Shown piece by piece: positions 47,798 through 61,941 of a stretch of DNA of 64,000 nucleotides. This stretch comes from Mycobacterium marseillense (lineage in GTDB: Bacteria > Actinomycetota > Actinomycetes > Mycobacteriales > Mycobacteriaceae), in contig NZ_AP022584.1 of NCBI RefSeq assembly GCF_010731675.1, positions 3,596,001 to 3,660,000 of the forward strand. The letters run 5' to 3'. The notes under the pieces are model-generated. The model saw nothing but the letters and a program-made list of their open reading frames with translations. It did not search any database and had not been told where the DNA came from. The position numbers were made by a program, and so were the translations under genes. Position 1 is the stretch's first letter; each line of letters begins with the position of its first letter.

Positions 47798-48204
47798 GCC
47801 GGCGTCACCTCCGGGCTCTCGGCTAATCCGCCGGTGGTGATGAAGCGGCACCGGCGCCGCGCGAAACGCCACTGGCCGGCGACGCGGGTCAACTCGTCGT
47901 CGTAGAGGGCGGGCCGCAACTGCAGATCGCCGCACCGGACGAACAGCACCTGCGATCGGGCGCTCGCGCGGTCCCCGTCGACCGTGATCCTCGAGACACC
48001 GGTCAGATGCAGGCCGCGCGCCGCGTCGCGGAACATGCCGGCGATCCCGTCGTGTCCTGCGAAAGTCTTGCCGTAGACCAGGAATTCGCCGTCGGAGGCG
48101 AACAGCTGGGCGCAGCCGTCGACATCACCGGCATCGAGTGCGAGGGCGTATGCGGCGATCAGGTCGCGGATCGCGGCCTGATCGTCCGCCTGGTTGGCGG
48201 TCAT
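47794..48204 (-). CDS. SnoaL-like (NTF2-fold) protein
   Basis: This 136-residue protein has the SnoaL/NTF2 layout. Helices come first (AAIRDLIAAYALALDAGDVDGCAQLFASDGEFLVYGKTFAGHDGI), then a curved sheet with YDDELTRVAGQWRFARRRCRFI. Proteins of this family act as isomerases, dehydratases or small-molecule binders, and are frequent in steroid and aromatic catabolic operons. The specific activity is unknown. ATGA junctions on both sides place it inside the operon. Confidence 0.82.
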   Translation of the reverse strand: MTANQADDQAAIRDLIAAYALALDAGDVDGCAQLFASDGEFLVYGKTFAGHDGIAGMFRDAARGLHLTGVSRITVDGDRASARSQVLFVRCGDLQLRPALYDDELTRVAGQWRFARRRCRFITTGGLAESPEVTPA

Positions 48205-48959
48205 TGCGTCGCCTCACGCAGGTGTTCGGCGGCCCCGCGCCGCAGCGCCAGGGACTCGGCGGCCAGGGTGATCATGCCGAAGCCCAACCGCGCCATGGCC
48301 TGGCCCGTGACACCGTCGCCGGCGTGGATGCCGGTGACCAGGCCCGCGTCCGAGGCCGCCCGGTGGACGCGCGTGATCGCGTCGAGCACCTCGGGGTGCC
48401 GGGTCGCCCCGAGGACGCCGACACCCATGGAGATGGCGAGATCGGCGGGGCCGACGTAGATTCCGGTCAGACCGTCGACGGCGCAGATCTCCTCGATGCC
48501 GGAGAGCGCCGCCGCGGTCTCGATCATCGCGAACACGCTCACCCGGGATTCGTGGGCGGCGGGGTCGGCACCGAGACTGGCGCACAGCGGGCCGAAGCTG
48601 CGCACGCCCGCCGGTGGATAGCGGGTGGCGGCCACCGCCGCCGCGGCCTCGTCGGCCGACTCGATCATCGCGATGACGACGGCGTCGGCGCCGGCATCGG
48701 CCACCCGCCCGATCGGCGCGGCATCGGCGTTGGGCAGGCGCACCGCGGTGGCCAGCGGCAGGTGCTCGGTGCGGCGCAGCATGCGGGCGATGTCGGCGTC
48801 GTCGAGATAGCCGTGCTGGGCGTCGAATCCGACGTAGTCGTAACCGGCGCGGGCGAATTCCTCGGGCCCCAGCCACGTCGGCCCGGTGACCCAGCCGCCG
48901 AAGATCACGGGTTTGCTGCCCAGCGCCAGCTGCAGATTGCTCGGCGAAGCATCCGTCAC
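48201..48959 (-). CDS. HpcH/HpaI-type aldolase
   Basis: This 252-residue TIM-barrel protein is of the HpcH/HpaI family of class II aldolases. Conserved blocks are GYDYVGFDAQHG, the ADAVVIAMIESADEAAAAVAATRYPPAGVRSFGP block and FAMIETAAALSGIEEICAVDGLTGIYVGPADLAISMG, in which Glu and Asp bind the metal. These enzymes cleave 4-hydroxy-2-keto acids to pyruvate plus an aldehyde. The GTG at 48959 follows GAGGGG. The start of the SnoaL gene overlaps its stop. It could supply the final carbon-carbon cleavage of a catabolic route. Confidence 0.87.
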   Translation of the reverse strand: MTDASPSNLQLALGSKPVIFGGWVTGPTWLGPEEFARAGYDYVGFDAQHGYLDDADIARMLRRTEHLPLATAVRLPNADAAPIGRVADAGADAVVIAMIESADEAAAAVAATRYPPAGVRSFGPLCASLGADPAAHESRVSVFAMIETAAALSGIEEICAVDGLTGIYVGPADLAISMGVGVLGATRHPEVLDAITRVHRAASDAGLVTGIHAGDGVTGQAMARLGFGMITLAAESLALRRGAAEHLREATQ

Positions 48960-48969
48960 GGTCGGCCCC

Positions 48970-49938
48970 TCACCCGGCGATCGCGATCTTGATGCGCTCG
49001 GCCACCGGTCGGCAGGCCAGCTCGAACGCATCCTGCACCGCCTCGACACCGAACGTGTGGGTGAGGTAGGCGCCGAGTAGCCAGGGATGCTCGGCGGTGA
49101 ACTTGCTCGCGAGCTCCAGCATGCGCCGCCGGTCAAGGGTCACACCGGATTTCAGCGTCAGGTTATTGCGCAGCATGGCCCGCATGCTGATCGGATACAT
49201 CTCGTCGTCGGCGACACCGAAATAGAAGACGGTGCCGCCGGGTGCGGTGGCGTCGATGGCGTGCGTCAGGGTGGCGACCTGGTGTCCGACCGCCTCGATG
49301 ACGACGTCGGCGCGGTCCCCGGGTTCGAGCTGACTCGCCCAGCGATCGCTGGTGGCGCGCACCGCCTCGTCGACGCCGAATGCCCTTGCCACATCGCGGC
49401 GATCGATCGGGTCGACCCCGGTGACGCGCCGCGCACCGGCCGCCTTGGCCACGTAGGAGAACAGCAGGCCGATCGATCCCTGGCCGATGATCGCGACGTG
49501 CCGGCCGGCCAAATCGCCGAGCTGCTCGCAGGCGTAGAGCACACAGGCCAGCGGTTGCAGGCCGATGGCCTGCGCCGGCGTCAGCGCCGGGTCGTAGGGC
49601 GCCAGCCCATCGCCGTTGCTCACGATGCGTTCCATCATGCCGTCGAACCCGGAGGCCCAGCCGACGACGACGTCCCCGGGACGGTGCGCGCGGTGCCGGC
49701 TGGCGATCACCTCACCGGCGACCTCGTGGATGGGGAAGCCGTCTTTCTCGGGTCCGCTGCGGCCGTCGTCGCCCGGGATCCGGCCCTTGGCACCGCGGAA
49801 GGCGGGCAGGTCGCTGCCGCAGACGCCGGCGGCCAAAAAACGCAGCAGCACCTGTCCGTCGGTCAGGGACTCGGGCGTGGGGTCCGCGATCGTCGTCCGC
49901 TCGAACTGGTACGGGGCGATGAGCCGGTAGGACCACAC
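48970..49938 (-). CDS. Medium-chain dehydrogenase (zinc-type, no structural zinc lobe)
   Basis: This 322-residue MDR protein has a likely catalytic zinc set, C40 (AAGVCGSDLPAF) and H71-E72 (FPIHEVAGEVI). It lacks the four-cysteine structural zinc loop. The Rossmann motif is VAIIGQGSIGLLFSYVAKAAGA. It resembles sugar- or threonine-dehydrogenase-like MDR enzymes. The GTG at 49938 has GGAGG six bases before it. It begins one base after the P450 stop, so it probably acts on the P450 product. Confidence 0.83.
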   Translation of the reverse strand: MWSYRLIAPYQFERTTIADPTPESLTDGQVLLRFLAAGVCGSDLPAFRGAKGRIPGDDGRSGPEKDGFPIHEVAGEVIASRHRAHRPGDVVVGWASGFDGMMERIVSNGDGLAPYDPALTPAQAIGLQPLACVLYACEQLGDLAGRHVAIIGQGSIGLLFSYVAKAAGARRVTGVDPIDRRDVARAFGVDEAVRATSDRWASQLEPGDRADVVIEAVGHQVATLTHAIDATAPGGTVFYFGVADDEMYPISMRAMLRNNLTLKSGVTLDRRRMLELASKFTAEHPWLLGAYLTHTFGVEAVQDAFELACRPVAERIKIAIAG

Positions 49939-49939
49939 G

Positions 49940-51181
49940 TCACACCTCCACCGGGATGTTGTTCCAACCCCATTGGAAGCTCGACGGCAACCGGGTGGCG
50001 GCTTCGGACTGAATAGCGTAGTCGGGCACCCGGCGCAGCCATTCCTGTAGCAGCACATCGATTTCCAGCCTCGCCAGGTGGTAGCCGATGCAGAAGTGCT
50101 GGCCGCGGCCGAACGCCAGTGAGCGGCGGATGGGCCGGTCCCAGAGGAATTCGTCGGGTTCGGGGTACTCCCGCTCGTCGCGGCTGGCCGACGCGAGCAG
50201 GGTGATGACGCGCTGGCCGGGGCTGATGGTCTGGCCGTGAATCTCGAAGGGCCTGCGCGCCGTTCGCGCGAACCACTGCGCCGGCGCGCAGTACCGGATC
50301 ATCTCCTCACGCGCGACGGGCACGTTGCTTGCGGGATCGGCGCGAACGGTGGCCAGCTGGCCGGGCCGTTGGCTGAGCTCCCACAGCCCGTGGGCGACGA
50401 TCTTGGGCACCGTCTCCGTGCCGCCAATGAAGATGCACAGCATCTGGGTGGCGACTTCCATGTCGTCGAGGGCGCTGCCGTCGGGCAGGTGATAGCCGAG
50501 CAGGCCGTCGACCACGTCCAGCGGCGGCCCGGACCGGTCGGCGCGACGGCGGGCGACCGCGGGCAGCAGGAACTCGAAATAGTTGGGGCGCGCCTGCCCG
50601 GTGTCCACGCCGACACCGGGCTGAGCGAGGCTGCCGACGTTGACCGCGGCGAGGACCTGCGGCGCGAGATCGGTGGGGATGCCCAGCAATTCGCAGACAA
50701 CCGCGGCCACCACGACGCCGCCGTAATCCTGGGTCAGGTCGAACGCACCGCGCGGCAGCAGCAGGTCGAGCCGTTCGTTGGCCAGCTCCCGGATCCTGCC
50801 CTCGAGGTCGGTGACCGACCGCGGCCGAAACGGCCGGGAGTGCGTGCGCCGGATCTCGCCGTACAGGTCGGCGTCGAACATGGCGTGGAACGGCAGGGGG
50901 TGCAGCGGTGGGTCGTCGACCGGACCCGAGTTGTGTTGGGCCAGCACCGATGCCGCGGGCAGGGTGCCCTCCGAGGCGACGAACGTGCCGTTGTTGACCT
51001 CCAGGACCTTCCAGATGTCCTCGAAGCGCGACAGCGCGAAGGTGTCCCACTGCGGCATGTAATACACCGGGTGGTGGTCGCGCAGGATTCGGTAGTACGG
51101 CAACGGGTTTGCCATCACCGCAGCGTCGAAGGGATCGTAGCTGAAGTCGGTGTGGTCCATGGGTCCTTGGCGCTCGGTCAC
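49940..51181 (-). CDS. Cytochrome P450
   Basis: This 413-residue soluble bacterial P450 has all key motifs. The I-helix reads FIGGTETVPK (253-257 GGTET) and the K-helix ExxR is E293-M-I-R296. The heme loop FGRGQHFCIGYHLARLE has the thiolate ligand at C364. The substrate is unknown. The CYP family cannot be named without comparison. The GTG at 51181 overlaps the upstream stop as GTGA; an ATG seven codons later is an alternative. It probably hydroxylates the substrate that starts the pathway. Ferredoxin and reductase genes are not adjacent. Confidence 0.93.
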   Translation of the reverse strand: MTERQGPMDHTDFSYDPFDAAVMANPLPYYRILRDHHPVYYMPQWDTFALSRFEDIWKVLEVNNGTFVASEGTLPAASVLAQHNSGPVDDPPLHPLPFHAMFDADLYGEIRRTHSRPFRPRSVTDLEGRIRELANERLDLLLPRGAFDLTQDYGGVVVAAVVCELLGIPTDLAPQVLAAVNVGSLAQPGVGVDTGQARPNYFEFLLPAVARRRADRSGPPLDVVDGLLGYHLPDGSALDDMEVATQMLCIFIGGTETVPKIVAHGLWELSQRPGQLATVRADPASNVPVAREEMIRYCAPAQWFARTARRPFEIHGQTISPGQRVITLLASASRDEREYPEPDEFLWDRPIRRSLAFGRGQHFCIGYHLARLEIDVLLQEWLRRVPDYAIQSEAATRLPSSFQWGWNNIPVEV

Positions 51182-51882
51182 TGCAGCGGTGAGGGCGGGA
51201 GGGCCTGCAGGATGGAATCTTCCCACCCGTCACGCAACGCGGGGGCCACGCTCATCCAGGTGACGATCTCGGCGGGCGGGCTCTCCTTCCACGAGGGGTA
51301 GTGCTCGGCGAAGCAGTCCCAGCCCCCGTCCAGCGCCCAGTAGTGGATGACCTCGTTGAAGCGGAAGGTCGTGGTGAACGAACCGAGCCAGCGTTTTCCG
51401 GTGCGTTCCGACCACGGCACGTAGAGCCGCTCGAGCTCCCGGATGTAGTCGTCCTGGCGGCCCGGCTTGGTCTGCATGATCTCCTGAATCACCAGCGGCG
51501 CAGTGAAATTCGCCTCACGCAGCTGGGCGAGCGTCCTGTTGCTGGGTCCGGCGTACATGATGCGGCCCTCGCCCGAGGCGCCGAGGTCGGCCAGAAACGC
51601 CGACCATTTTCCGGCCGCGGCCTCATGACTGCCGCCGCGGGCCTGGGCCGCGCCGATCCTGGCGTAGTCGGCGAACCCGTCGATCTCCCAGATGACCGTC
51701 ACCTGCGGCCAGTGCCCGTTGTACGCGGTGGACTCCCAGATCGCGAACAACCGGGCGCCCAGTTGCTCCATCATCGGCTGGTAGGTGTCGGCGAAGATCT
51801 CGGTGAACCGGTCGCTGCGTCCGGATCCCAGCGAGATCGTCTCGTGCAGGTAGAGCAGCGCGTGTTTGTAGTACTTCTTCAT
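51178..51882 (-). CDS. Hypothetical protein with two NIPSNAP/ferredoxin-like halves
   Basis: This 234-residue protein is not confidently recognised. It seems to contain two related alpha/beta halves: residues 5-105 (LYLHETISLGSGRSDRFTEIFADTYQPMMEQLGARLFAIWE) and 125-225 (PLVIQEIMQTKPGRQDDYIRELERLYVPWSERTGKRWLGSF). Each starts with a strand followed by a helix carrying a charged face, as in NIPSNAP-type ferredoxin-like dimers. It lies 4 bp after the hypothetical gene upstream and couples to the P450 by GTGA. A non-catalytic or isomerase role in the pathway is possible. Confidence 0.7.
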   Translation of the reverse strand: MKKYYKHALLYLHETISLGSGRSDRFTEIFADTYQPMMEQLGARLFAIWESTAYNGHWPQVTVIWEIDGFADYARIGAAQARGGSHEAAAGKWSAFLADLGASGEGRIMYAGPSNRTLAQLREANFTAPLVIQEIMQTKPGRQDDYIRELERLYVPWSERTGKRWLGSFTTTFRFNEVIHYWALDGGWDCFAEHYPSWKESPPAEIVTWMSVAPALRDGWEDSILQALPPSPLQ

Positions 51883-51886
51883 GGGC

Positions 51887-52450
51887 CTAGTCGAGCCGGA
51901 TCAGCTCGGAGTCGGCCCCCGACCCCACGTCGCACAGCAGCGTTTCGATGGGGGCGACCGTGGCGTCCGAAATGCCCGCTGCCGCAAGCGCATAGCCCTT
52001 GAACATGCGCGCCGCACCGCTGAGCAGGTGCTGGGCGCGGGTCGTGGCGCGATGCACTCCCAGGGGCCACCCGTCGCCCCACAACGCGACTTCCGTCAGC
52101 CGGTTGTCCAGCGACTCGAGCACGGCGTCACGCACCCGGGCGTCGGCGGTGAAGGCGTCCGCGCTGACGGCCAGGCTGGTCGAGCCCGCCCCCAGCGCGG
52201 CCAGGGACGACTCGAGGTCGGCAACCCGCACCCCCAGGATCCGCAGCGATCGGGTGTCGCGGCCCTGAGGCAGCAGGACCGTCACCTCCCAGCCGGCCAT
52301 CGCCCGGTCGTAGAGCCACCCCCCGGCCGATTGCACGACGTCGACGGCGCTGGCGGCGACGACGTCCAGTCGATAGCGCAGGCCATCACTGGTGGCCTGG
52401 GTTGCTCGGGCGGCGTCGGTCTTGCTGATGTCGAACGTTGGAGCGACCAT
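51887..52450 (-). CDS. Hypothetical protein, first gene of the P450 operon
   Basis: This 187-residue protein is not recognised. It shows an alpha/beta pattern with RYRLDVVAASAVDVVQSAGGWLYDRAMAGWEVTVLLPQGRDTRSLRILGVRV, which looks like a small Rossmann-like or receiver-like fold. An Ala-rich second half contains GDGWPLGVHRATTRAQHLLSGAA. No catalytic motif is evident. The ATG at 52450 follows GAGGAA nine bases upstream. It is the promoter-proximal gene of a nine-gene set, and a 27-bp element shared with two other promoters stands 118 bp upstream. Confidence 0.65.
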   Translation of the reverse strand: MVAPTFDISKTDAARATQATSDGLRYRLDVVAASAVDVVQSAGGWLYDRAMAGWEVTVLLPQGRDTRSLRILGVRVADLESSLAALGAGSTSLAVSADAFTADARVRDAVLESLDNRLTEVALWGDGWPLGVHRATTRAQHLLSGAARMFKGYALAAAGISDATVAPIETLLCDVGSGADSELIRLD

Positions 52451-52568
52451 CGATCCATTCCTCACCACGGCCCCAACGACTCCGTTGGCGGGCCTCAAGC
52501 ACTTGTCATGGGCTTTCTCAAGGGCTGGAGCCGCTGCACGCGTCGGGTGAAGCGACTCACCGGACAGC

Positions 52569-52595
52569 GTGACACTTCCGGCGAAATTTGTAAAG
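52569..52595. promoter_or_regulatory. Copy A of the GTGACACTT-N10-TTGTAAAG element
   Basis: A 27-bp element lies between the CoA-transferase gene and the P450 operon. It matches both other copies at every fixed position (9 plus 8 bases) with the same 10-base spacer. It contains an imperfect dyad TGACA-N14-TGTAA. The only gene it can serve is the minus-strand operon beginning at 52450. Confidence 0.65.
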
Positions 52596-52609
52596 GTCCT
52601 CGCGGGCCG

Positions 52610-53779
52610 TTACGAACCGCGGCGCGCCTCGAGGTCGGCCAGGACTTCCTCGGTGTGCTGCCCGAGTTCTGGTGCCGCAGAACGCGGTGCCCAGGGGGTG
52701 CCGTGAAAATCCGCGGGCGTGGCCACCATCGGCACGGCCGCCTCCCCGTCGGGCACGTCGACGATGCCACCCGCGGCGTGGAACTGCTCGTCGGCCACGA
52801 CGTCCTCGAGGGTGTTGACCGGTGACCAGAAGAAATCCGGTTCGCCGGCGAAGACCTGCGCCCATTCGTCGAGCGGGCGCGTCGCGAAGATCTCGTCCAG
52901 GGCGGCAATCAGCGCCGCCGAGTTGGCCGCACGGGATCGGGCATCGGCGAACCGCGGGTCGTCGCGCCATTCGGGCCGTCCCACCGCGCGGCACAGCGCC
53001 GGCCAGTGCCGCTCGGGCTCCAGGCCGACGATCCAGAACCGGCGCCCGTCTTGGGCGGCGTAGTTGTTCATGCACGGGTTGCCCATCGATTCGCGCTGCC
53101 CGATCGCGATCGGCTGGCCGCTCATCAGATAGGTGTTCAGGTCGAAGCTCACGGTGTAGGCGCCCTGCCGGTACAGCGAGGTGGTCACCAGCTGGCCCGC
53201 CCCGGTGCGTTCGCGCGCCAGCAGCGCCGCGCACACCGCCGCGGCCATCGTCATCCCGGCGGAGTGGTCGCCCATGCCGCCGCGCTGAAACGGAGGCGTC
53301 TCGCCGGGCCGGGTGAGCAGGTGGGCCACCCCGGCCCGCGACCAGAACGCGGCCACGTCGAAGGCGGCGCGATCGGCGTCCGGTCCGTTTTCGCCGTATC
53401 CGGTGATGAGGCCGTAGACCAGGCGGGGGTTGGTCGCCGACACCGACTCGAAGTCCAGCCCGAGGCGTTGCAGCGCACCCGGTCGCACGTTGGTCAGGAA
53501 AACGTCTGCGCCGGCGAGCAATTCGAAGGCGGTGGCGCGGCCCGCGTCGGTGCCGAGGTCCAGCACGACGCTGCGCTTGGACCGGTTGTCCATTTCGAAC
53601 GGCGGGTTGAGGCCCATATCGCAGCCCAGCATCCGGCCGAACAGGCGCGCCGGATCGCCGGTGGGCGGTTCGATCTTGATCACGTCGGCGCCCCAGTCCG
53701 CCAGGATGCCGCCGGCGGCCGGCCCGGCCACCCACACCCCGAGCTCGACGACTTTGACGCCTTCCACCGGTCCCGCCAT
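52610..53779 (-). CDS. CaiB/BaiF-type (family III) CoA transferase
   Basis: This 389-residue enzyme is of the formyl-CoA transferase family. The N-terminal Rossmann-like segment is VKVVELGVWVAGPAAGGILADWGADVIKIEPPTGD, and the nucleotide region is DNRSKRSVVLDLGTDAGRATAFELLAGADVFLTNVRPGALQRLGLDF. The catalytic aspartate is probably the Asp of MGDHSAGMTMAAAVCAALL. It would move CoA between carboxylic acids, activating the acid product of the pathway. It is separated by 63 bp from the NmrA-like gene upstream and by 159 bp from the P450 operon. Confidence 0.9.
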   Translation of the reverse strand: MAGPVEGVKVVELGVWVAGPAAGGILADWGADVIKIEPPTGDPARLFGRMLGCDMGLNPPFEMDNRSKRSVVLDLGTDAGRATAFELLAGADVFLTNVRPGALQRLGLDFESVSATNPRLVYGLITGYGENGPDADRAAFDVAAFWSRAGVAHLLTRPGETPPFQRGGMGDHSAGMTMAAAVCAALLARERTGAGQLVTTSLYRQGAYTVSFDLNTYLMSGQPIAIGQRESMGNPCMNNYAAQDGRRFWIVGLEPERHWPALCRAVGRPEWRDDPRFADARSRAANSAALIAALDEIFATRPLDEWAQVFAGEPDFFWSPVNTLEDVVADEQFHAAGGIVDVPDGEAAVPMVATPADFHGTPWAPRSAAPELGQHTEEVLADLEARRGS

Positions 53780-53842
53780 GGGTAAGTTCCTACCCTGTCG
53801 GCGGGCGGAGGCGCACGCATCCCCCCGATTGCGCGGTAGGGG

Positions 53843-54763
53843 TCAGCTCGCCACGGGCTGATCGCGCACCGCGAATCCGCCGTCATGGTCGAAGGCGGCG
53901 CGGTTGGCATCGACGTACTCGGGCACGGTCATGGGTTTGTGGCCTGTGATGACCTCGGTGAGGTTGTTCTCGCCCGCGAAGATGCCGTCCTGGTAGTCCC
54001 GGGCGACGCTGCTGATGTGCTGCACGAAGAAGTCGGACCTGCCTTGCGCTTTCAGCGCCGCGGCAAACGTCGGGACGCCGACCGGCTCGTAGCGGACCGG
54101 AATGCCCAGCGTGTCCGAGATTTGTTCCGCGATGTGAAAGTGGTCGAGTTCTTCGGCACCCACCAGCGGATAGATCTGGCGATTGTGGGGAGCCGGATTC
54201 TGCAGGATCGCGGCGATGACGCCGGCCTGATCGCGCCCGGCGATGGGCGCGTGGCGCCCGTTGCCGAACGGCAGTCGCAGCACCCCTTCGTCGCCGTTAC
54301 GCAGCCATTGCCATTTGAGCCACTCGGCGAAGAACGTAGGGCGCAGGTGTGTGGTGCCGAACGCGAAGCGGTCCAGCAGCCGCTCGGCGATCCAGTGCTG
54401 CTGTGCAGCATTGCTTTTCGCCTCACGTCGCGCGGATATCTGCGACATGTTGACCACCGCGCGCACGCCCGCTTCGCTGGCTGCCTGGGCGAAGATGGCA
54501 GTGGCCGGCAGCAGGCTGCCCGGGGCGATCGGGTAGCAAAAGTAGGCGGCGCTGACGCCGGACATCGCCGAGCTGACGGCATGGAAGTCGAGCAGGTCAC
54601 CTGTGACGACCTCGGCCCCGATGGCAGCCAGCGCGTCGGAGCGTCGGTCGCTGCGGTGCACGAACGCGCGCACTCGGTGGCCGGCGTCGAGCAGCATCTC
54701 GACGGTGGGCGCGCCGGTGTTGCCGGTTGCGCCGGTGATGAGAAACAGCTGGTCTGATGGCAT
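53843..54763 (-). CDS. NmrA-like NAD(P)-binding protein
   Basis: This 306-residue atypical SDR has the cofactor motif ITGATGNTGAPTVEMLLDAGHRVRAFVHR at the N-terminus and NmrA-family features (GDLLDFHAVSSAMSGVSAAYFCYP). The catalytic Tyr-Lys pair is absent, as in redox-sensing NmrA and quinone reductase QorB relatives. The ATG follows AGGAGGG. It is divergent from an HxlR regulator across 89 bp holding two identical-type operators, the typical HxlR/oxidoreductase pairing that responds to quinones or electrophiles. Confidence 0.87.
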   Translation of the reverse strand: MPSDQLFLITGATGNTGAPTVEMLLDAGHRVRAFVHRSDRRSDALAAIGAEVVTGDLLDFHAVSSAMSGVSAAYFCYPIAPGSLLPATAIFAQAASEAGVRAVVNMSQISARREAKSNAAQQHWIAERLLDRFAFGTTHLRPTFFAEWLKWQWLRNGDEGVLRLPFGNGRHAPIAGRDQAGVIAAILQNPAPHNRQIYPLVGAEELDHFHIAEQISDTLGIPVRYEPVGVPTFAAALKAQGRSDFFVQHISSVARDYQDGIFAGENNLTEVITGHKPMTVPEYVDANRAAFDHDGGFAVRDQPVAS

Positions 54764-54783
54764 TGTCCGCCCTCCTTGCTGAG

Positions 54784-54797
54784 TAACGATTCCGTTA
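54784..54797. promoter_or_regulatory. HxlR-type operator 1 (TAACG-N4-CGTTA)
   Basis: Perfect dyad with 5-bp arms and a 4-base spacer, 20 bp upstream of the NmrA-like ATG and close to its ribosome-binding site. The same arms recur 40 bp away. Confidence 0.7.
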
Positions 54798-54823
54798 GTA
54801 AGATAAGAGCACACCATGCTGGA

Positions 54824-54837
54824 TAACGCAAGCGTTA
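54824..54837. promoter_or_regulatory. HxlR-type operator 2 (TAACG-N4-CGTTA)
   Basis: Second perfect dyad with the same arms and spacer length, 15 bp upstream of the HxlR start. The centre-to-centre distance of 40 bp to operator 1 (about four helical turns) puts both on the same DNA face. Confidence 0.7.
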
Positions 54838-54852
54838 GTCATAGGGGTTGTG

Positions 54853-55320
54853 ATGGAGTTCGAGAACCGGCTGCAAGACCGGGAGCGATGGGCCATTGGC
54901 GAAAGCTGTTCGATGTCGAAAGTCCTCGAGCTACTCAGCACCAAGACCGCATTCCAAGTGGTCCGCGAGTTGTTCTTCGGCACAAGGCGATTCGAGGACT
55001 TTGTAGAACGCATTGCGACGTCGGCCCCGGCGGTGTCGCGGGCGCTCAAGCAGCTCGAAGCCGCGGGCATCGTCGCCCGCGTTCCCTACCGGGAGGCAGG
55101 TAAGCGCGTCCGCGACGAGTACCGACTGACCGAGGCCGGGGAGGACTTCCTGCCGGTGTTCATGTCGTTGGTGCAGTGGGGAGACACCTATCTGCAGGAT
55201 GGGCCTGCGCCTCTGTCGTTCGTCGACGCGGCCACCGGCCGGGCAGTTGGGGTGTGCGTCACCACCGACATCGACGCACCGGGAAAGCGGTCGGCCGACA
55301 TTCAGATACAGCGCACATGA
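54853..55320 (+). CDS. HxlR-family transcriptional regulator
   Basis: This 155-residue protein has a winged-helix HxlR domain. It reads CSMSKVLELLSTKTAFQVVRELFFGTRRFEDFVERIATSAPAVSRALKQLEAAGIVARVPY, with a DEYRLTEAGEDFLPVFMSLVQWGDTYL wing and dimer helix. A conserved N-terminal cysteine (C20 in GESCSMSK) is at the place of the redox-sensing Cys in several HxlR proteins. ATG 54853 is chosen; a GTG precedes it directly. It probably controls itself and the divergent NmrA-like gene through the two TAACG-N4-CGTTA sites. Confidence 0.88.
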   Translation: MEFENRLQDRERWAIGESCSMSKVLELLSTKTAFQVVRELFFGTRRFEDFVERIATSAPAVSRALKQLEAAGIVARVPYREAGKRVRDEYRLTEAGEDFLPVFMSLVQWGDTYLQDGPAPLSFVDAATGRAVGVCVTTDIDAPGKRSADIQIQRT

Positions 55321-55355
55321 TTGGCTAGAGCGGCGAGCAACCGGAAGGACGACGC

Positions 55356-56042
55356 ATGAGTCTGGTGGCAGGGCGCGGTCCCCTCAGCAGCGAGCCGGCG
55401 GGGCGCTTCGTGCCCGCGATCCCCTACGGTGTCGTCTACGTCGAGCCGCATCCCCGGCGCGTGCAGGCGGTCAAGGACGGGCGGCTGGTGATCGATACCG
55501 AGCGGGCGCTGATGGTGCACCGGCGGGGCCGCCCACTGGGCTACGTGTTCACGCCCGACGACGTCGGCGAGCTGCCGAGCGAGCCCGAGCCGGAGGCACC
55601 GGGTTTCGTTCACGTCCCGTGGGACGCGGTCGACACGTGGTTCGAGGAGGGGCGCAAACTCGTGCACTATCCGCCCAATCCCTATCACCGCGTCGACTGC
55701 CGCCCGACGCAACGGCGCCTGCGCGTCCGCGTCGACGGCACCACGTTGGTCGACACCGACGACACGACGATTCTGTTCGAGACCGCGCTCGAGCCGCGGT
55801 TGTACGTCGACCCGGCACACGTGCGCACCGATCTGCTGCGCCGATCCGAGACGTCGAGTTACTGCAATTACAAGGGCTTTGCGACGTATTGGTCGTTCGT
55901 CTCGGGCGACCGGGTCGCCGAGGACGTCGCCTGGTGTTATCCGGACCCGCCGCCGGAAAGCCTGCCGATCAAGGGTTTTCTGAGTTTCGACGACACGCGC
56001 GTCGACATGCTGGCCGCGCTGCCGGTCAGCGGCCGTAGCTAG
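55356..56042 (+). CDS. DUF427-domain protein, tandem domains
   Basis: This 228-residue protein has two DUF427-like halves. The second is clear: RRLRVRVDGTTLVDTDDTTILFETALEPRLYVDPAHVRTDLLRRSETSSYCNYKGFATYWSF. The first (AVKDGRLVIDTERALMVHRRGRPLGYVFTPDDV) is more diverged. DUF427 proteins form small beta barrels of unknown function. The ATG follows GGAAGGACG. Its last 17 bp overlap the convergent acyl-CoA dehydrogenase gene, and it lies 35 bp after the HxlR gene, so it may be co-transcribed. Confidence 0.82.
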   Translation: MSLVAGRGPLSSEPAGRFVPAIPYGVVYVEPHPRRVQAVKDGRLVIDTERALMVHRRGRPLGYVFTPDDVGELPSEPEPEAPGFVHVPWDAVDTWFEEGRKLVHYPPNPYHRVDCRPTQRRLRVRVDGTTLVDTDDTTILFETALEPRLYVDPAHVRTDLLRRSETSSYCNYKGFATYWSFVSGDRVAEDVAWCYPDPPPESLPIKGFLSFDDTRVDMLAALPVSGRS

Positions 56043-57210
56043 GGCGCCCGAGCCCCAACTCGTGCTGGGCGATCATATTGCGGAACACTTCCATGGTGCC
56101 GCCGTAGATCCCGGCGGGCACGCCGTGCCGGAAGATGAACTCGATGGCACCATTGTCGGCGAAGTCCGCGGATCCCGTGGTGTCGGTGGGCAATGCCGAA
56201 GCCGCCCCCAGCAGGTCCATCAACTCCTGGGACACCTCACGCATGGTCTGGATGAGCCCCACCCGCCCGTACATCCCGGGAGTCGACATGGCCGCCTCGA
56301 TCCGGGCCATGGCGCGCCCGAGGCGGTATTTCGTCGCCTCGTCGTCGATCGGGCGCCGCCCGCTGGCGTCGGGCCTGGACAGGATCGCGGCGACCCCGTC
56401 GGCCGCCTCGGCCATCAGGTGGCCGTGCTCTGAGAGCATCGAAATGTTCTGCAGGCCATGGTCTTGGACCTCGGTGATGCCATGTTCGGCATCGAGGGCG
56501 AACCGCATCACCGTCCAGCCGCCGTTGACCTCACCGATCCGGTAGAGGTCGTCGACCCGCACGTCGCTGTAGTACACGATGTTGGTGCGGTCCCCGTCGA
56601 CGGTGCGGATGGCCTGGACCTCGATGCCCTCCGAATCCAGCGGCACCAGAAACATGGTCAGGTTCTTGTGCTTCGGGCCCTGCGGGTCGGTGTTGGTGAG
56701 CAGGAAGACGTACTTGGCGTTCTGCGCGTTCGAGGTGAACATCTTGGAGCCGTTAATGATCCACGCATCGCCGTCGCGCACCGCGCGGGTCTTGCAGGTG
56801 GCGACGTCGGAGCCGCCCTCGGGCTCGGTGTAGCCCAGGCAGAGCCGGATCTCACCAGACAGCACCCCGGGCAACACCTGGCTGCTCAGTTCCGGCGCAC
56901 CGAATTGGCGCACCAACCGCGCGACGACCGCCGTGGTGCCCCAGTGGAACCACGGGGCGTGGGCACGACCGATCTCGAGGTGAAAGATCCGGCGGCGCAC
57001 CGGATTGAAGCCGCCTTCGGACTCCAGTCTCCAGTCCGACTCCAGATAGCCGGCTTCGCCTAATGCCAAATGCACCGGCTCACTGAAGTTTTCGCCGGTC
57101 TCCCGATCGCGTCGCCGGACCTCGTCGGTGACATGCTCGGTGAGGAATTCCCGGAACTGATCGTGGAAGTCCTGGTCCTCGGGCGAGAGCGCTACGCGGG
57201 AGAAGTCCAT
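56026..57210 (-). CDS. Acyl-CoA dehydrogenase family protein
   Basis: This 394-residue FAD enzyme has the ACAD layout. The helical N-domain (residues 1-120) is followed by the central sheet with CLGYTEPEGGSDVATCKTRAVRDGDAWIINGSKMFTSNA. The C-terminal helical domain contains GIYGGTMEVFRNMIAQHELGLGRPSYGR. At the place where MCAD-type enzymes have the catalytic Glu (YEGT), this protein has Gly (YGGT), so the base is elsewhere or the protein works with a partner subunit. It is the third gene of a unit with a thioesterase and a luciferase-like enzyme, starting directly after the latter's stop. Confidence 0.88.
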   Translation of the reverse strand: MDFSRVALSPEDQDFHDQFREFLTEHVTDEVRRRDRETGENFSEPVHLALGEAGYLESDWRLESEGGFNPVRRRIFHLEIGRAHAPWFHWGTTAVVARLVRQFGAPELSSQVLPGVLSGEIRLCLGYTEPEGGSDVATCKTRAVRDGDAWIINGSKMFTSNAQNAKYVFLLTNTDPQGPKHKNLTMFLVPLDSEGIEVQAIRTVDGDRTNIVYYSDVRVDDLYRIGEVNGGWTVMRFALDAEHGITEVQDHGLQNISMLSEHGHLMAEAADGVAAILSRPDASGRRPIDDEATKYRLGRAMARIEAAMSTPGMYGRVGLIQTMREVSQELMDLLGAASALPTDTTGSADFADNGAIEFIFRHGVPAGIYGGTMEVFRNMIAQHELGLGRPSYGR

Positions 57211-58131
57211 TCAGGCCGCGTCGATCACGAGGGTACGGAAACGGTCGAGGGTCTCCAGCGCGTGCGTCATGCTGTCGCCGGGCAGATGGACACTGACCCA
57301 GGTCACCCCCAGCTTCGCCAAGCTGTCCAGGCCCTCCAGGTAAGCGTCGGGGTTGAACGCGTCATCGGCGGGGCTGCCGCCCTCGAAGTTGGTGAAGGTG
57401 ATGTCGATCGCCGACCAATCCCGGCCCGCCGCATCGCATCTGCGCCGCAGGTCCTCGATGCCCGCGGTGAGCTTGGCCACCGAGTCGATGGTGGCCGTGC
57501 CCGCGGTCTGCGCCAACTGGGGCGGGGCGGGAAACGGGCACCAGCCGTCGCCGTACTGGGCCACCCGCTGACGCGACGCGGCGGTGTTGCCGCCGATCCA
57601 GATCGGGGGGTGCGGGCTGCTGACGGGCCGCGGATGCGCGGTGATGCCGCGCGCGCTGAAATGCTTCCCCTCGAAGGAGATGTCGTCTTGGGTCCAGACG
57701 GCCCGGATCACCTGGAGGGCTTCCTCGAACAACTCGGCGCGTTCGTCGTAGCTGACGCCCAGCGCGGCGAATTCGCGCTTGAGGTAGCCCACGCCGACCG
57801 CGAGCGTGAAGCGGCCGCCGGACAACAGGTCCAGCGTGGCGCCGGACTTGGCCACCACGAACGGGTTTCGGTACGGCAGCACCACGATGTTGGGGATCAG
57901 CCGCAGGGTGGACGTGGTGGCCGCGGCGAAACCCAGTGCGACGAAAGGATCTAACGCGTCATGCCCGCCGGCTTCCAGCCACCGCTGTGACGGTGCCGGG
58001 TGATCGGTGAAGCCGAAACCGTGGATCCCGGCGGCTTCGGTGGCCGCGGCCACCTTGCCGATGCCGTCCCCACTCACCAATTCCCGGTTGTAGGGATGGC
58101 TGTGCATCGGGTGGGTGATCGTGAAGTGCAT
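57211..58131 (-). CDS. Luciferase-like F420/FMN-dependent oxidoreductase (LLM family)
   Basis: This 306-residue TIM-barrel protein is of the bacterial luciferase-like family. It starts with HFTITHPMHSHPYNRELVSGDGIGKVAAATEAAGIHGFGFTDHPAP. The cofactor-binding elements GGRFTLAVGVGYLKREFAALGV and PPIWIGGNTAASRQRVAQYGDGWCPF are present. Many mycobacterial members use F420. It may oxidise or reduce a pathway intermediate. The ATG at 58131 was chosen; the longer frame upstream belongs to the thioesterase shadow. It lies 5 bp after the TesB-like stop. Confidence 0.87.
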   Translation of the reverse strand: MHFTITHPMHSHPYNRELVSGDGIGKVAAATEAAGIHGFGFTDHPAPSQRWLEAGGHDALDPFVALGFAAATTSTLRLIPNIVVLPYRNPFVVAKSGATLDLLSGGRFTLAVGVGYLKREFAALGVSYDERAELFEEALQVIRAVWTQDDISFEGKHFSARGITAHPRPVSSPHPPIWIGGNTAASRQRVAQYGDGWCPFPAPPQLAQTAGTATIDSVAKLTAGIEDLRRRCDAAGRDWSAIDITFTNFEGGSPADDAFNPDAYLEGLDSLAKLGVTWVSVHLPGDSMTHALETLDRFRTLVIDAA

Positions 58132-58136
58132 GGCCG

Positions 58137-59039
58137 TCAGAAGCGCGCGCGGGAGTCGATCGCGGAGTCGCTGGTCCGCAGCGGGCGGATCAGCGCCTCC
58201 TGGGAGAACGACGCCAGCAGCTCCCCCTCTTCGGCGTGCACGGCGCCGCGCACGTACGACATTCCCGCACCCACCTGAGTGCTCTCGTGGGTGTAGAGCA
58301 GCCACCCACTCCAGTGCACCGGCTCGTGGAAGGCGACCGAGATGCTCATCGGCGCGGTGGACACGGTCAGGTGCGCCTGGGCGGTGCCGATGCCTTCGTG
58401 CGCGCGCATGGTGGTGGAGATCCCCAGGTGGCCGGTGAAGTACGCCAGCAGCGCCTTGGCCAGATCGTCGCGCTGCGGGATCGGGTCGTAGTGCAGCCAC
58501 GCGTAGAGCTCCGGCGGGCCGACCTCGTCGGGGCTGTTGACGTCGACGACGTCCACCAGGCGCAGCTCGCGGCCGACCATCGGCATCGGTGAGGGGTTGG
58601 CGTCGGCCGGCGCGGCCACGTCGGGGCGCGGCAGGTGGTGACGGATGACATCGCCGGTCGGGACGTCGGCCAGCACCGTGATGCTCAGGCAGCGCCGGCT
58701 GTTCTGGTGCACGGCGACGACGGCGGTGGCGGTGGATCGGCCCTCGGCCACGACGTCGAGGATCAGCTCGATCGGCGGACCGACGGTCACGGCGCGAGAG
58801 AACACCGCGTGCGCCGAGCGCACCGACTTGTCCGGGAATCGTTTGGCCACCGCGACGATCGCCTGGGCCAGCACCTGGGTGCCCTCCACCACCTGGCGTT
58901 CGTCGCCGACAGCGATGCCGGTGTCGCCGGTGAACCGGTCCTGGCCGTCGGCCTGCACGTCAAACAGATCCAGCAGGCCTTGCACCGTCCACTCGGTCTG
59001 CTGAGATTCCTCGGAAGCTTTCGTCAAAATCCGCTCCAC
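58137..59039 (-). CDS. TesB-like acyl-CoA thioesterase II
   Basis: This 300-residue double-hotdog thioesterase has an N-terminal hotdog FTGDTGIAVGDERQVVEGTQVLAQAIVAVAKRFPDKSVRSAHAVFSRAV. The C-terminal hotdog has ISVAFHEPVHWSGWLLYTHESTQVGAGMSYVRGAVHAEEGELLASFSQEALIR, the region that holds the catalytic set of TesB enzymes. It would release CoA from pathway intermediates. It is the first gene of the three-gene minus-strand unit, and copy B of the shared 27-bp element lies 28 bp upstream of its ATG. Confidence 0.88.
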   Translation of the reverse strand: MERILTKASEESQQTEWTVQGLLDLFDVQADGQDRFTGDTGIAVGDERQVVEGTQVLAQAIVAVAKRFPDKSVRSAHAVFSRAVTVGPPIELILDVVAEGRSTATAVVAVHQNSRRCLSITVLADVPTGDVIRHHLPRPDVAAPADANPSPMPMVGRELRLVDVVDVNSPDEVGPPELYAWLHYDPIPQRDDLAKALLAYFTGHLGISTTMRAHEGIGTAQAHLTVSTAPMSISVAFHEPVHWSGWLLYTHESTQVGAGMSYVRGAVHAEEGELLASFSQEALIRPLRTSDSAIDSRARF

Positions 59040-59067
59040 CTCTCGCGCTAGCAGCTCAGGGCTCAGC

Positions 59068-59094
59068 GTGACACTTTGAGTAGGATTTGTAAAG
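59068..59094. promoter_or_regulatory. Copy B of the GTGACACTT-N10-TTGTAAAG element
   Basis: Lies in the divergent gap between the TesB-like unit (28 bp away) and the SRPBCC gene (66 bp away). All fixed positions match copies A and C, and the preceding CAGC is shared with copy A. Confidence 0.7.
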
Positions 59095-59160
59095 CTTGGC
59101 TAACAAGACGGCGGCCTGGCGGCTGAATCGGCCAACGGAAAGCGCAGGGAGGCAACACCA

Positions 59161-59637
59161 TTGGGCATCGTGACCACCACTTCGGAGACCGCGTTCACGC
59201 AGTCCGCCGAGACCGTCTACGACTTCGTCACCAACCCGCAGAACTGGACCAAGACCTACCCCGGCAGCGCCCACATCGGCGGGCTGCCCGAGCTACCCCT
59301 GAAGGTCGGTGACACCTGGGAGGAAGCCGGGCCCGACGGCGACCGGATCTTCCGCTGGCAGCTGGCCGCCGCCGTGCGGCCCACCCTGTTCGTGTTCACC
59401 TCGATCGGGCGCCTGGGCCATGACCGCGACGGGAACGGCGGTATGGAGGGGCGGATCACCGTCTCCTACCACTTCACCCGGCCGGGCCAGGACGTCACGC
59501 TGTTCTCCCGGACCATGACGATCGAGGCGTACAAGCACGCCCCCTTGCCCGATCAGCTCTTCGTCCAGGCCAACCCGGCGAAGATCGACGCCTACCACGA
59601 GGCCGTCGCGCGCGAACTCGCCCGATCGGCAGATTGA
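59161..59637 (+). CDS. SRPBCC-family protein
   Basis: This 158-residue START-fold protein reads TSETAFTQSAETVYDFVTNPQNWTKTYPGSAHIGG at the N-terminus, the standard SRPBCC opening. A six-stranded sheet and C-terminal helix (KIDAYHEAVARELARSAD) follow. It probably binds or transforms a hydrophobic pathway intermediate. The TTG at 59161 is preferred because AGGGAGG lies eight bases before it; GTG at 59170 is an alternative. It begins a plus-strand set that runs to the TetR gene. Confidence 0.83.
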   Translation: MGIVTTTSETAFTQSAETVYDFVTNPQNWTKTYPGSAHIGGLPELPLKVGDTWEEAGPDGDRIFRWQLAAAVRPTLFVFTSIGRLGHDRDGNGGMEGRITVSYHFTRPGQDVTLFSRTMTIEAYKHAPLPDQLFVQANPAKIDAYHEAVARELARSAD

Positions 59638-59655
59638 CACCGGCACCCGCGGTGC

Positions 59656-59682
59656 GTGACACTTTTTCGGTGTTTTGTAAAG
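59656..59682. promoter_or_regulatory. Copy C of the GTGACACTT-N10-TTGTAAAG element
   Basis: Stands 27 bp upstream of the SMP-30-like ATG, in the gap after the SRPBCC gene. All 17 fixed positions and the 10-base spacer match copies A and B, while the spacer sequence differs. Confidence 0.7.
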
Positions 59683-59709
59683 CGGAAGGTTGGCCGAAGG
59701 CATGAGCGG

Positions 59710-60528
59710 ATGATCCCCGAGCCGCTGGCCAACGGGTTCTGCTTCGGCGAGGGACCGCGCTGGTTCGAGGGCCTGCTGTGGTTCTCCGACATGCTAGGCG
59801 AAGCGGTCCACACCTCGACCATGGGGGGCTCGCTGACTACGCTGCCGCTGCCCGGGCACTCACCGTCGGGCCTGGGCTTCCGTCCCGACGGCTCGCTGCT
59901 GATCGCCTCGACCGAGGACCGGCGGGTACTGCGCTATGACGGCGAAACCGTCGTCACCATCGCCGATCTCGCCGACGTGGCGCCGGCCAACCTCGGCGAC
60001 ATGGTCGTCGACGACGCGGGCCGCGCCTACATCGGCTGCCAGGCGCTGCACGGCGGCGTCGTCATCCGCCTCGATCCCGACGACAGCGCGACCGTCGTCG
60101 CCGAGGATCTCGACTTCCCCAACGGGATGGCGATCACCCCGGACCGCAAGACCCTGATCGTCGCCGAGTCGACGGGGCGGCGGCTGAGCGCGTTCTCCAT
60201 CGGTGATGACGGGGGCCTGACCGACCGGCGGATCTTCGCCGACGGCCTGGACGGGCCGCCCGACGGCATCGCGCTCGACGCCGAGGGCGGGGTGTGGGCG
60301 TCGATGACGCTGGCCCATCAGTTCGAGCGGATCGTGGCCGGCGGCGACGTGACCGACCGCATCGACATGGGCGACCGCGTCGCCATCGCCTGCGCCCTCG
60401 GTGGCCCGCAACGCCGCACCCTGTTTCTCTTATCGAGCACGGAGGCCTACCCCCAGCGCCTGGTCGGCACCCGGCTGTCGCGGCTGGACGCCGTCACGGT
60501 GACCACCCCCGGCGCCGGCCTCCCCTAA
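59710..60528 (+). CDS. SMP-30/gluconolactonase-like lactonase
   Basis: This 272-residue six-bladed beta-propeller is of the SMP-30/gluconolactonase/LRE family. The metal-site glutamate is at the start (NGFCFGEGPRWFEGLLWFSDM). The conserved blades LGDMVVDDAGRAYIG, LDFPNGMAITPDRKTLIVAEST and DGPPDGIALDAEGGVWAS supply Asn and Asp ligands. It would open a lactone ring, which is a logical step after a Baeyer-Villiger monooxygenase. ATG 59710 is chosen; the frame extends to 59656 across the regulatory element. Confidence 0.88.
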   Translation: MIPEPLANGFCFGEGPRWFEGLLWFSDMLGEAVHTSTMGGSLTTLPLPGHSPSGLGFRPDGSLLIASTEDRRVLRYDGETVVTIADLADVAPANLGDMVVDDAGRAYIGCQALHGGVVIRLDPDDSATVVAEDLDFPNGMAITPDRKTLIVAESTGRRLSAFSIGDDGGLTDRRIFADGLDGPPDGIALDAEGGVWASMTLAHQFERIVAGGDVTDRIDMGDRVAIACALGGPQRRTLFLLSSTEAYPQRLVGTRLSRLDAVTVTTPGAGLP

Positions 60529-60546: not shown

Positions 60547-61380
60547 ATGACCGACGCCTACTACGAACTGATCGACCCGGCCGGCGACGACGCCGATGCG
60601 CCGGGCGAGAAGTTCCGGGCGACCGACCTGGCGCGCGGCACCTGGTCGGCGGCGATCCAGCACGGCGGTCCGGTGTCGGGGCTGCTGGTGCGGGCGCTGG
60701 AACGCTGCGAACAGCGCGACGACACCCGCCTGTCCCGGGTCGTCATCGACCTGCTGGGCGGGGTGCCGGCCGACGGCGACCTGTGGGTCCGCTCGCAGGT
60801 GCAGCGCCCGGGCAAGCAGATCGAACTCGTCAGCGCCGAGATGCTGGCGCCGGGCCCCGACGGCGCACCCCGGCCGGTGGCGCGCGCCAGCGGCTGGCGG
60901 TTGCAGCACCAGGACACCCACGAGCTGGCGCACGCGGCGGCCCCCCTGCCCCGGCCGAGGGCCGAGGCCTACGACCGCAACCTCAAGGCCAAGGACTGGG
61001 ACCGCAATTACGTGCACAGCCTTCAGTGGCTGTGGCTGACCGAGCCGCTGAGCGAGGGCCCCGGCGAATCGTGGATCAACCCGACGGTCGACCTGGTCAA
61101 CGGCGAGTCCATGACCCCGCTGGAACGGCTGTTCGCGGTCGCCGACTGCGCCAACGGCATCGGCAGCAAGCTCGACATCACCAAATGGACGTTCCTCAAC
61201 ACCGATCTGGCCGTGCACGTGTTTCGTGTTCCCGACGGTGATTGGATCGGCATCAGGGCGGAAACCAGTTACGGGCCGGACGGAATCGGGACGACGATCG
61301 GCACATTGTTCGATGAGCAGGGCGCGGTCGGCGCCATCCAGCAGTCGGTGCTGGTGCGCCGGCGCCCCCCTCGGGCCTAA
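60547..61380 (+). CDS. Acyl-CoA thioesterase-like double-hotdog protein
   Basis: This 277-residue protein has an N-terminal hotdog (TWSAAIQHGGPVSGLLVRALERCEQRDDTRLSRVVIDLLGGVPADGDLWVRSQV) and a C-terminal hotdog (GESMTPLERLFAVADCANGIGSKLDITKWTFLNTDLAVHVFRVPDGDWIGIRAETSYGPDGIGTTIGTLFDEQGAVG). This is the mycobacterial TesB-related thioesterase-superfamily layout. It lies 18 bp after the SMP-30 gene and 15 bp before tetR, in one operon. ATG 60547 is preferred to TTG 60541 because of spacing from GAAAAGG. Confidence 0.85.
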   Translation: MTDAYYELIDPAGDDADAPGEKFRATDLARGTWSAAIQHGGPVSGLLVRALERCEQRDDTRLSRVVIDLLGGVPADGDLWVRSQVQRPGKQIELVSAEMLAPGPDGAPRPVARASGWRLQHQDTHELAHAAAPLPRPRAEAYDRNLKAKDWDRNYVHSLQWLWLTEPLSEGPGESWINPTVDLVNGESMTPLERLFAVADCANGIGSKLDITKWTFLNTDLAVHVFRVPDGDWIGIRAETSYGPDGIGTTIGTLFDEQGAVGAIQQSVLVRRRPPRA

Positions 61381-61395: not shown

Positions 61396-61941
61396 ATGAG
61401 CCAGCCGGTCCGGGCGACGACGATCGCCGACACAGACACCTCGACCCGTCAGCGCATCCTGGCGGCCACCGCCGAGGTGCTCGGCCGCAATGGCAAAACC
61501 AAGCTCAGCCTGTCCGACGTGGCCACCCAGGCGGGCGTGTCCCGCCCGACGCTGTACCGCTGGTTCGCGTCCAAAGAGGAGTTGCTGTCGGCGTTTTCGG
61601 CCTACGAGCGACAGATCTTCGAAAGCGGCCTCGTGAAGGCCACCGCGGGCCTCAAGGGCGTCGACAAGCTCGACGCCGTGCTGCGGTTCATCGTCGATTA
61701 CCAGCATTCATACTCGGGTGTGCGCATGGTCGACGTCGAACCCGAGCACACCATCGCCCAGTTCTCCTGGGTCATCCCGCAGATGCGCGAGGGCCTGCGA
61801 CGGCACCTGCCCGGACCGAACTCCGCGGTGAAGGCGGCGACGGTGATCCGGATCGCGATCTCGCACTACATCGTGCGCAGCGACGACGCCGAGCAGTTCC
61901 TGGCGCAGCTGCGCCACGCGGTCGGGATCAAGGGCAGCTGA
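61396..61941 (+). CDS. TetR-family regulator of the catabolic region
   Basis: This 181-residue protein has a TetR DNA-binding domain (TRQRILAATAEVLGRNGKTKLSLSDVATQAGVSRPTLYRWFASKEELLSAFSAYE, about residues 17-71) and a helical effector domain. It ends the plus-strand unit with the SMP-30 and thioesterase genes, which is preceded by copy C of the 27-bp element. It is the best local candidate for the protein that binds all three copies. The ligand would then be a pathway intermediate or CoA ester. GGAGGC precedes the ATG. Confidence 0.88.
   Translation: MSQPVRATTIADTDTSTRQRILAATAEVLGRNGKTKLSLSDVATQAGVSRPTLYRWFASKEELLSAFSAYERQIFESGLVKATAGLKGVDKLDAVLRFIVDYQHSYSGVRMVDVEPEHTIAQFSWVIPQMREGLRRHLPGPNSAVKAATVIRIAISHYIVRSDDAEQFLAQLRHAVGIKGS

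Follow-up and report, generated by a model that had tools for sequence, protein, structure and literature searches.

A 64,000-nucleotide stretch of the Mycobacterium marseillense genome (contig NZ_AP022584.1, positions 3,596,001 to 3,660,000; hereafter, the window) contains three copies of a 27-bp element that was first noticed in a prediction from the DNA alone. The copies stand beside genes for a cytochrome P450, a flavin monooxygenase, an SMP-30/gluconolactonase-like protein, and other putative catabolic enzymes. We consider it quite likely that the TetR-family protein encoded at 61396-61941 of the window, like its close paralogs, uses the element as its operator, and that it acts as an autoregulated repressor of catabolic genes. 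It is very probable that the sites define a putative new TetR regulon, with an operator that is real in most of our sample of the genus and that has the form of an unusually long split dyad.

Three perfect copies of the element

We scanned the 64-kb window for the 17 fixed positions of the two arms, separated by a 10-base spacer, allowing 0-3 mismatches, and we repeated the scan on 100 dinucleotide shuffles. There are exactly three matches, all on the + strand and all perfect (17/17 fixed positions), at just the places that the original prediction had given. The shuffled windows had a mean of 0.01 matches with up to three mismatches, and none of the 100 had three. The next-best position in the window has five mismatches.

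Copy 1 (core 52569-52595, or 52566..52597 as an extended dyad of 32 bp) lies 118 bp upstream of a nine-gene operon on the minus strand, and its position is conserved in most of the named relatives described below. Copy 2 (core 59068-59094; extended, 59065..59096) lies between a divergent pair of genes, 28 bp from the start of a tesB-like gene and 66-75 bp from an SRPBCC gene. Copy 3 (core 59656-59682; extended, 59653..59684) is 20-27 bp upstream of a unit that encodes the SMP-30-like protein, a thioesterase, and the TetR. The whole genome (5.5 Mb in 2 contigs) adds one copy with two mismatches and one with three, and the pattern read backwards, which we used as a control, matches it once. The motif is not scattered genome-wide: three of the four matches with at most two mismatches are in the window.

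A split dyad with strict spacing

We examined 323 sites with at most two mismatches from 120 loci plus the window, using a home-made gene caller for the surrounding genes. The spacing of the arms is strict. Across 133 loci (2.53 Mb), there were 344 matches with a gap of 10, whereas no other gap from 0 to 21 gave more than one. A pattern with one extra spacer base had no matches in 6 genomes, while the correct spacing had 57 (five of the six genomes being the same).

The search itself biases the information content at the 17 positions of the pattern, but the flanking positions are free of this bias, and they are conserved too. Among 308 distinct 57-base site sequences, the left flank has A (69%), G (92%), and C (94%), and the final G of the pattern is followed by C (52%) and T (61%). 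The AGC flank is present in most site classes, including non-orthologous ones, but there are exceptions: among the named relatives, sites of the SMP-30 class have TGC instead, and those of the tetR class are without AGC. Within the spacer, T at position 19 (94%) and A or T at position 18 (88%) are also conserved. The consensus, AGCkTkACA-N14-TGTaAaGCT, is a split dyad of about 32 bp, in which 7 of the 9 arm positions are complementary and the centers of the half-sites are about 19 bp apart. The 27-bp element extends outwards to about 32 bp, its spacer is not entirely variable, given positions 18-19, and the dyad TGACA-N14-TGTAA has the right axis but is the core of a longer dyad.

The element also emerges from a count that uses no pattern. 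When gapped word pairs were ranked by frequency in the intergenic DNA of 40 loci, the first 25 were all parts of it; the top pair was present in 35 of the 40 loci, and once the sites were masked, the best remaining pair was found in 11.

Most of the sites (304/323) are intergenic, against a background of 8.9% of the sequence, and a gene start adjoins 322 of the 323. The median distance from site to gene start is 40 bp (quartiles 11, 40, and 88; full range -714 to 1139). The free positions vary between site classes, while the arms are constant across non-orthologous intergenic regions. The variable orientation of the copies had been taken as a sign of an operator rather than a promoter. This holds in the main, as site 1 faces a leftward operon, site 2 a divergent pair, and site 3 a rightward unit. 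Still, the orientations are not random: SMP-30 and tetR are on the TTGTAAAG side in the listed site classes. At 58 sites orthologous to copy 1, the sole adjacent gene start is on the left.

The element follows the TetR across Mycobacterium

We searched 148 Mycobacterium genomes for homologs of the window's TetR (E at most 1e-30) and for the motif (at most two mismatches). Many of the other comparisons use 80 named loci and site-bearing loci that were fetched via the TetR and are circular in this respect, unlike the whole-genome counts. The motif is present in 116 of the 148 genomes, with 524 sites in total, whereas the backwards pattern has 23 matches. A TetR homolog is present in 123 genomes, and the motif was found in 116 of these 123 but in none of the 25 genomes that lack the TetR (Fisher p = 2.5e-22, without correction for kinship). 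The number of sites also rises with the number of TetR copies. The mean is 0.0 sites per genome without a TetR (n = 25), 3.2 with one (n = 70), 4.9 with two (n = 35), and 7.3 with three or more (n = 18), and one genome has 17-18. The Spearman correlation is 0.84 for all genomes and 0.73 when only the 123 TetR-positive ones are counted. Along with the autoregulatory placement of the sites, these results support the prediction's choice of the TetR as the obvious candidate regulator.

The named relatives are the best 80 of 237 loci from the TetR search and include M. colombiense (whose TetR is 98% identical, making it close to the window's species), M. arosiense, M. lepraemurium, M. nebraskense, M. 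genavense, M. szulgai, M. gordonae, and M. persicum, among others. All 80 loci have at least one site, mostly at the same genes, which is what the prediction implied for sister species. Most have two to four sites, largely placed as in the window. In some relatives, tetR is preceded by an extra copy at a distance of about 35 bp; this copy has no mismatch in M. ostraviense, M. persicum, M. innocens, and M. fragae and 1-3 mismatches in others.

In a survey of 301 genomes from the family, the motif was found in 28 of 29 genomes of the window's genus and in both genomes of another genus (g20). A stretch from g20 (L244) has the same gene order, with a perfect site followed by SMP-30, thioesterase, and tetR. 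Outside these two genera, 13 of 270 genomes have one to three matches (1-2 mismatches), fewer than the roughly 45 genomes beyond the window's genus in which the backwards control matched. Among the genomes sampled, the system is confined to Mycobacterium and one near relative.

M. lepraemurium (L080, 1-2700) keeps all three operator copies, with one mismatch in each. Only a 100-amino-acid frame is found at the expected place of the P450, and the stretch ends nearby; decay of the P450 operon is a possibility.

The TetR and its paralogs

The window's TetR has 181 amino acids and a single TetR_N domain: the N-terminal helix-turn-helix family PF00440 scores 50.5 bits, versus a cut-off of 24. Its predicted structure has nine helices in an ordinary all-helical TetR fold (mean predicted confidence, pLDDT, of 83.7). 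The 50 Foldseek matches listed, of 805, are transcription regulators and nearly all are in the TetR family; TM-scores for these 50 reach 0.68, their identities do not exceed 23%, and KstR, FasR, and FadR proteins are among them. Matches by sequence to the Protein Data Bank (PDB) are partial, mostly to the helix-turn-helix region, with Mce3R first. In an alignment of 29 sequences that represents all the paralog groups, VSRPTLYR of the recognition helix is invariant.

We built a tree by a quick method from 88 of 140 rows (139 collected sequences plus the window's TetR), with the rows for named relatives thinned. It contains the window's group and two further groups, types A and B. We took clade counts from the tree only, as our separate class labels had used the presence of an upstream site. 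In the type A clade (18 rows, support 99), 17 of the 18 tetR genes have a site with 0-1 mismatches within 200 bp upstream. Type A adjoins a ferredoxin-P450 pair, and type B adjoins a kinase-like gene of the EcKL/APH families and a CoA-transferase. Among the 80 named relatives, 21 have a site (0-3 mismatches) within 200 bp upstream of tetR. A tetR without its own site, as in the window, stands behind SMP-30 and its site. These palindromic sites near the starts of tetR and its neighbors are where an autoregulatory TetR would be expected to bind, and we infer that the TetR is the protein that binds them.

Alternative explanations

Several observations weigh against this interpretation. The distance of about 19 bp between half-site centers is wide for one TetR dimer, and 19 of the 323 sites are intragenic by our home-made gene caller. 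Just 1 of the 27 tetR genes in the type B clade (support 88) has a site within 200 bp upstream, 59 of the 80 named relatives' tetR genes lack their own upstream site, and 40 of the 84 inner branches of the tree have support under 80. Seven genomes (G042, G054, G055, G062, G069, G077, and G083) have the TetR but not the motif. The stretches that we fetched from these seven genomes have the TetR without SMP-30, NIPSNAP, or the P450 operon, although some keep the CoA-transferase, LLM, or DUF427 genes. Because the main targets are gone as well, these genomes cannot distinguish a TetR that binds the element from one that travels with the targets. Two of the seven have a copy with four mismatches upstream of tetR (L156:10522 and L158:10310), a weak hint of decayed operators. 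More generally, the TetR and the targets are inherited together, so their co-occurrence is not independent proof. This leaves some room for another regulator, encoded elsewhere, to which the operator belongs, and our scan for helix-turn-helix domains covered only part of the unlabeled neighboring genes. We think this improbable, as the number of sites follows the TetR copy number, and as a site with two mismatches (L243) stands beside a tetR paralog (53% identical) that has no P450 or SMP-30 gene nearby. Also, the other helix-turn-helix genes of the window are inconstant: the HxlR gene is found in 14 of 113 loci and the GntR gene in 6 of 113.

Another explanation that we judge improbable, to about the same degree, is that the TetR binds these sites but activates the genes, or both activates and represses them. 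Site 1, which is farther upstream of its gene than sites 2 and 3, would suit activation, but most sites are near gene starts, and a divergent gene pair often shares a single site. TetR-family proteins usually act as repressors. We also considered that the element could be a promoter for an alternative sigma factor, with GTGACA as the -35 box and TAAAG as the -10 box; these are 16 bases apart, which is near the usual spacing. However, at the 58 sites orthologous to copy 1, such a promoter would point away from the only adjacent gene start, and the conservation extends beyond the hexamers and forms a dyad. We rejected this explanation on orientation, as very improbable. Finally, that the element is a repeat or mobile element, or just conserved orthologous intergenic DNA without regulatory meaning, is hardly credible. 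Several copies do lie close together and many of the 323 sites are orthologous (there are 227 distinct 27-mers). But the free positions differ by class while the arms stay fixed in non-orthologous regions, practically no other gap length occurs, and the sites are at gene starts.

A proposed regulatory circuit

If the TetR is the regulator, then an oligomer of it would bind the 32-bp split dyad beside or over the promoters and keep the genes off; the wide spacing suggests two TetR dimers per operator. Three units would be controlled from the window's sites: the nine-gene operon (P450, alcohol dehydrogenase, aldolase, short-chain dehydrogenase, Baeyer-Villiger monooxygenase, and hydrolase, among others); the tesB, LLM, and acyl-CoA dehydrogenase genes together with the SRPBCC gene; and the SMP-30-thioesterase-tetR unit. 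As the third unit contains tetR, the repressor would limit its own amount. The inducer would be a pathway substrate or an acyl-CoA intermediate, whose binding to the C-terminal domain would free the DNA.

The genes near the sites encode a Baeyer-Villiger monooxygenase, a P450, dehydrogenases, an SMP-30 lactonase-like protein, a hydrolase, thioesterases, a CoA-transferase, an acyl-CoA ligase, and acyl-CoA dehydrogenases. These suggest a pathway in which hydroxylation by the P450 is followed by oxidation to a ketone, formation of a lactone by the Baeyer-Villiger enzyme, opening of the lactone, activation with CoA, and beta-oxidation. The substrate may be an alicyclic, terpenoid-like, or steroid-like compound. 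We speculate, with less confidence, that the paralogous TetRs (the window's type, A, and B) share both the recognition helix and the 32-bp operator and thereby form a network, such that the same promoters could be released by any of several intermediates from a single large oxidative pathway.

The element offers a DNA code and a probable regulator for a set of P450/Baeyer-Villiger monooxygenase/lactonase genes that is conserved across most of our Mycobacterium species. With it, members of the pathway should be predictable in any mycobacterial genome, and derepression could provide a handle for finding the substrate. It would also be a test case for a TetR operator that is much longer than the usual 14-15 bp.

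Comparison to known regulators

These comparisons draw on parts of the cited papers. The closest analogy in regulatory logic seems to be KstR2, which also has a small local regulon, autoregulation, CoA-dependent catabolic genes, and three sites that lie between divergent genes close to the regulator (PMC3068626). But KstR2 has a compact 14-bp site, AnCAAGnnCTTGnT, instead of a 32-bp split dyad, and the half-sites differ as well; we set the two proteins apart by their operators only. Our best reading is that the window's TetR is KstR2-like in logic, with a longer operator. KstR shares the TetR fold (structural matches to 5fmp and 5cxg at 19-21% identity). However, the window's TetR scores just 28.5 bits against NCBIfam's KstR model (NF033703), which has a cut-off of 280, and the KstR motif is a 14-bp palindrome (PMC3068626) rather than a 32-bp split dyad with arms at a gap of 10.

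Mce3R is the best PDB match by sequence (E = 7e-7, in the helix-turn-helix region only), and it too controls a mycobacterial lipid regulon from long sites, of 25 bp (PMC11667970). Unlike the single 181-amino-acid TetR and the dyad of the window, Mce3R is a double TetR of 406 amino acids with an asymmetric site (PMC11667970). The operator of the QacR type is 28 bp and is stated in PMC4482099 to be bound by a tetramer; it is similar in being a long palindrome that suggests two dimers, a likeness that we take from the description in that paper only.

Balhana et al. (2015; PMC4482099) described 30 palindromic TetR motifs from a comparison of mycobacteria. As far as the parts considered here go, their approach differs in that it relied on conserved, divergently oriented TetRs, with a table of M. 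tuberculosis genes; it is unlikely that the element overlaps one of their 30 motif logos. Our literature searches found no report of the motif or regulon, as judged by titles and the starts of abstracts, with subscription papers mostly outside their scope.

Sites beyond the layout of the window

In stretches with TetR type A or B, a site that is usually perfect, and sometimes has one mismatch, lies between the genes NIPSNAP-P450-alcohol dehydrogenase-aldolase-short-chain dehydrogenase-flavin monooxygenase-hydrolase and SMP-30-thioesterase. A second site separates TetR type A from the P450/ferredoxin pair. Other sites, with 1-2 mismatches, stand in front of the aldehyde dehydrogenase behind TetR type B and of pairs of acyl-CoA dehydrogenase and SRPBCC genes.

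The two-mismatch copy elsewhere in M. marseillense (C1:3498277-3498303; L242:5277) is 97.7 kb before the window. It is 25 bp upstream of a gene for an AMP-binding acyl-CoA ligase that is divergent from a MIP channel gene. Genomes G060 and G038 share its identical 27 bases.

Genome G066 has 18 sites at a relaxed pattern, of which 14 are on one contig within about 80 kb. This catabolic island (contig C4, 87937-170191; L170 and L232-L235) contains acyl-CoA dehydrogenases, thiolases, amidohydrolases, WS/DGAT, and several P450s, and it is a candidate for the full pathway. A copy with one mismatch (L237:5046) is remote from the main cluster, flanked by the diverging genes of a SnoaL-like protein and ribosomal protein S16, and a perfect copy (L240:5483) seems to have a similar setting.

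Genes at the three sites

The operon downstream of site 1 had been described as having nine genes, and indeed there are nine minus-strand genes at 44647-52450, with gaps of -4 to 17 bases. The first gene (51887..52450) has no Pfam family. Those for a NIPSNAP-like protein (51178..51882), a cytochrome P450 (49940..51181), a zinc alcohol dehydrogenase (48970..49938), an HpcH/HpaI-type aldolase (48201..48959), a SnoaL-like protein (47794..48204), a short-chain dehydrogenase (47069..47776), a flavin monooxygenase (45567..47072), and an alpha/beta hydrolase (Abhydrolase_3; 44647..45570) follow. The heme loop of the P450, FGRGQHFCIG, fits what we take to be the normal motif, and a regular expression for what we take to be the Baeyer-Villiger fingerprint, FTGKVMHSSRWD, matches the flavin monooxygenase.

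To the left of site 2, on the minus strand, are genes for a TesB-like acyl-CoA thioesterase (58137..59039), an F420-dependent LLM oxidoreductase (TIGR03619; 57211..58131), and an acyl-CoA dehydrogenase (56026..57210). TIGR03619 has 11 members in the source genome with E below 1e-50. The name of this LLM family raised a link to Rv2160A/Rv2161c of M. tuberculosis, which could not be established and which we dropped. To the right of site 2, on the plus strand, is the SRPBCC/polyketide-cyclase-like gene (59161..59637), whose match (21 bits) is below Pfam's cut-off of 27.4.

The plus-strand unit behind site 3 encodes the SMP-30/gluconolactonase-like protein (Pfam SGL; 59703..60528, with the start at 59703 or 59710), an acyl-CoA thioesterase (4HBT_3/3C; 60547..61380), and the TetR (Pfam TetR_N; 61396..61941). 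Among 113 site-bearing loci, the SMP-30 gene was found in 101 and the thioesterase in 103.

Because of their rarity in these loci, neither the HxlR protein (54853-55320) nor the GntR protein (41805-42476) is likely to be the regulator, although many stretches end before the place of the GntR gene, so its count may be too low. The HxlR gene is divergent from an NmrA-like gene inside the cluster (53843-55320). Its presence in only 13-14 of the 113 loci suggests that this pair was inserted later, and it may be regulated locally. Also inside the cluster, at 55356-56042, is a gene for a DUF427 protein, which is present in 79 of the 113 loci.

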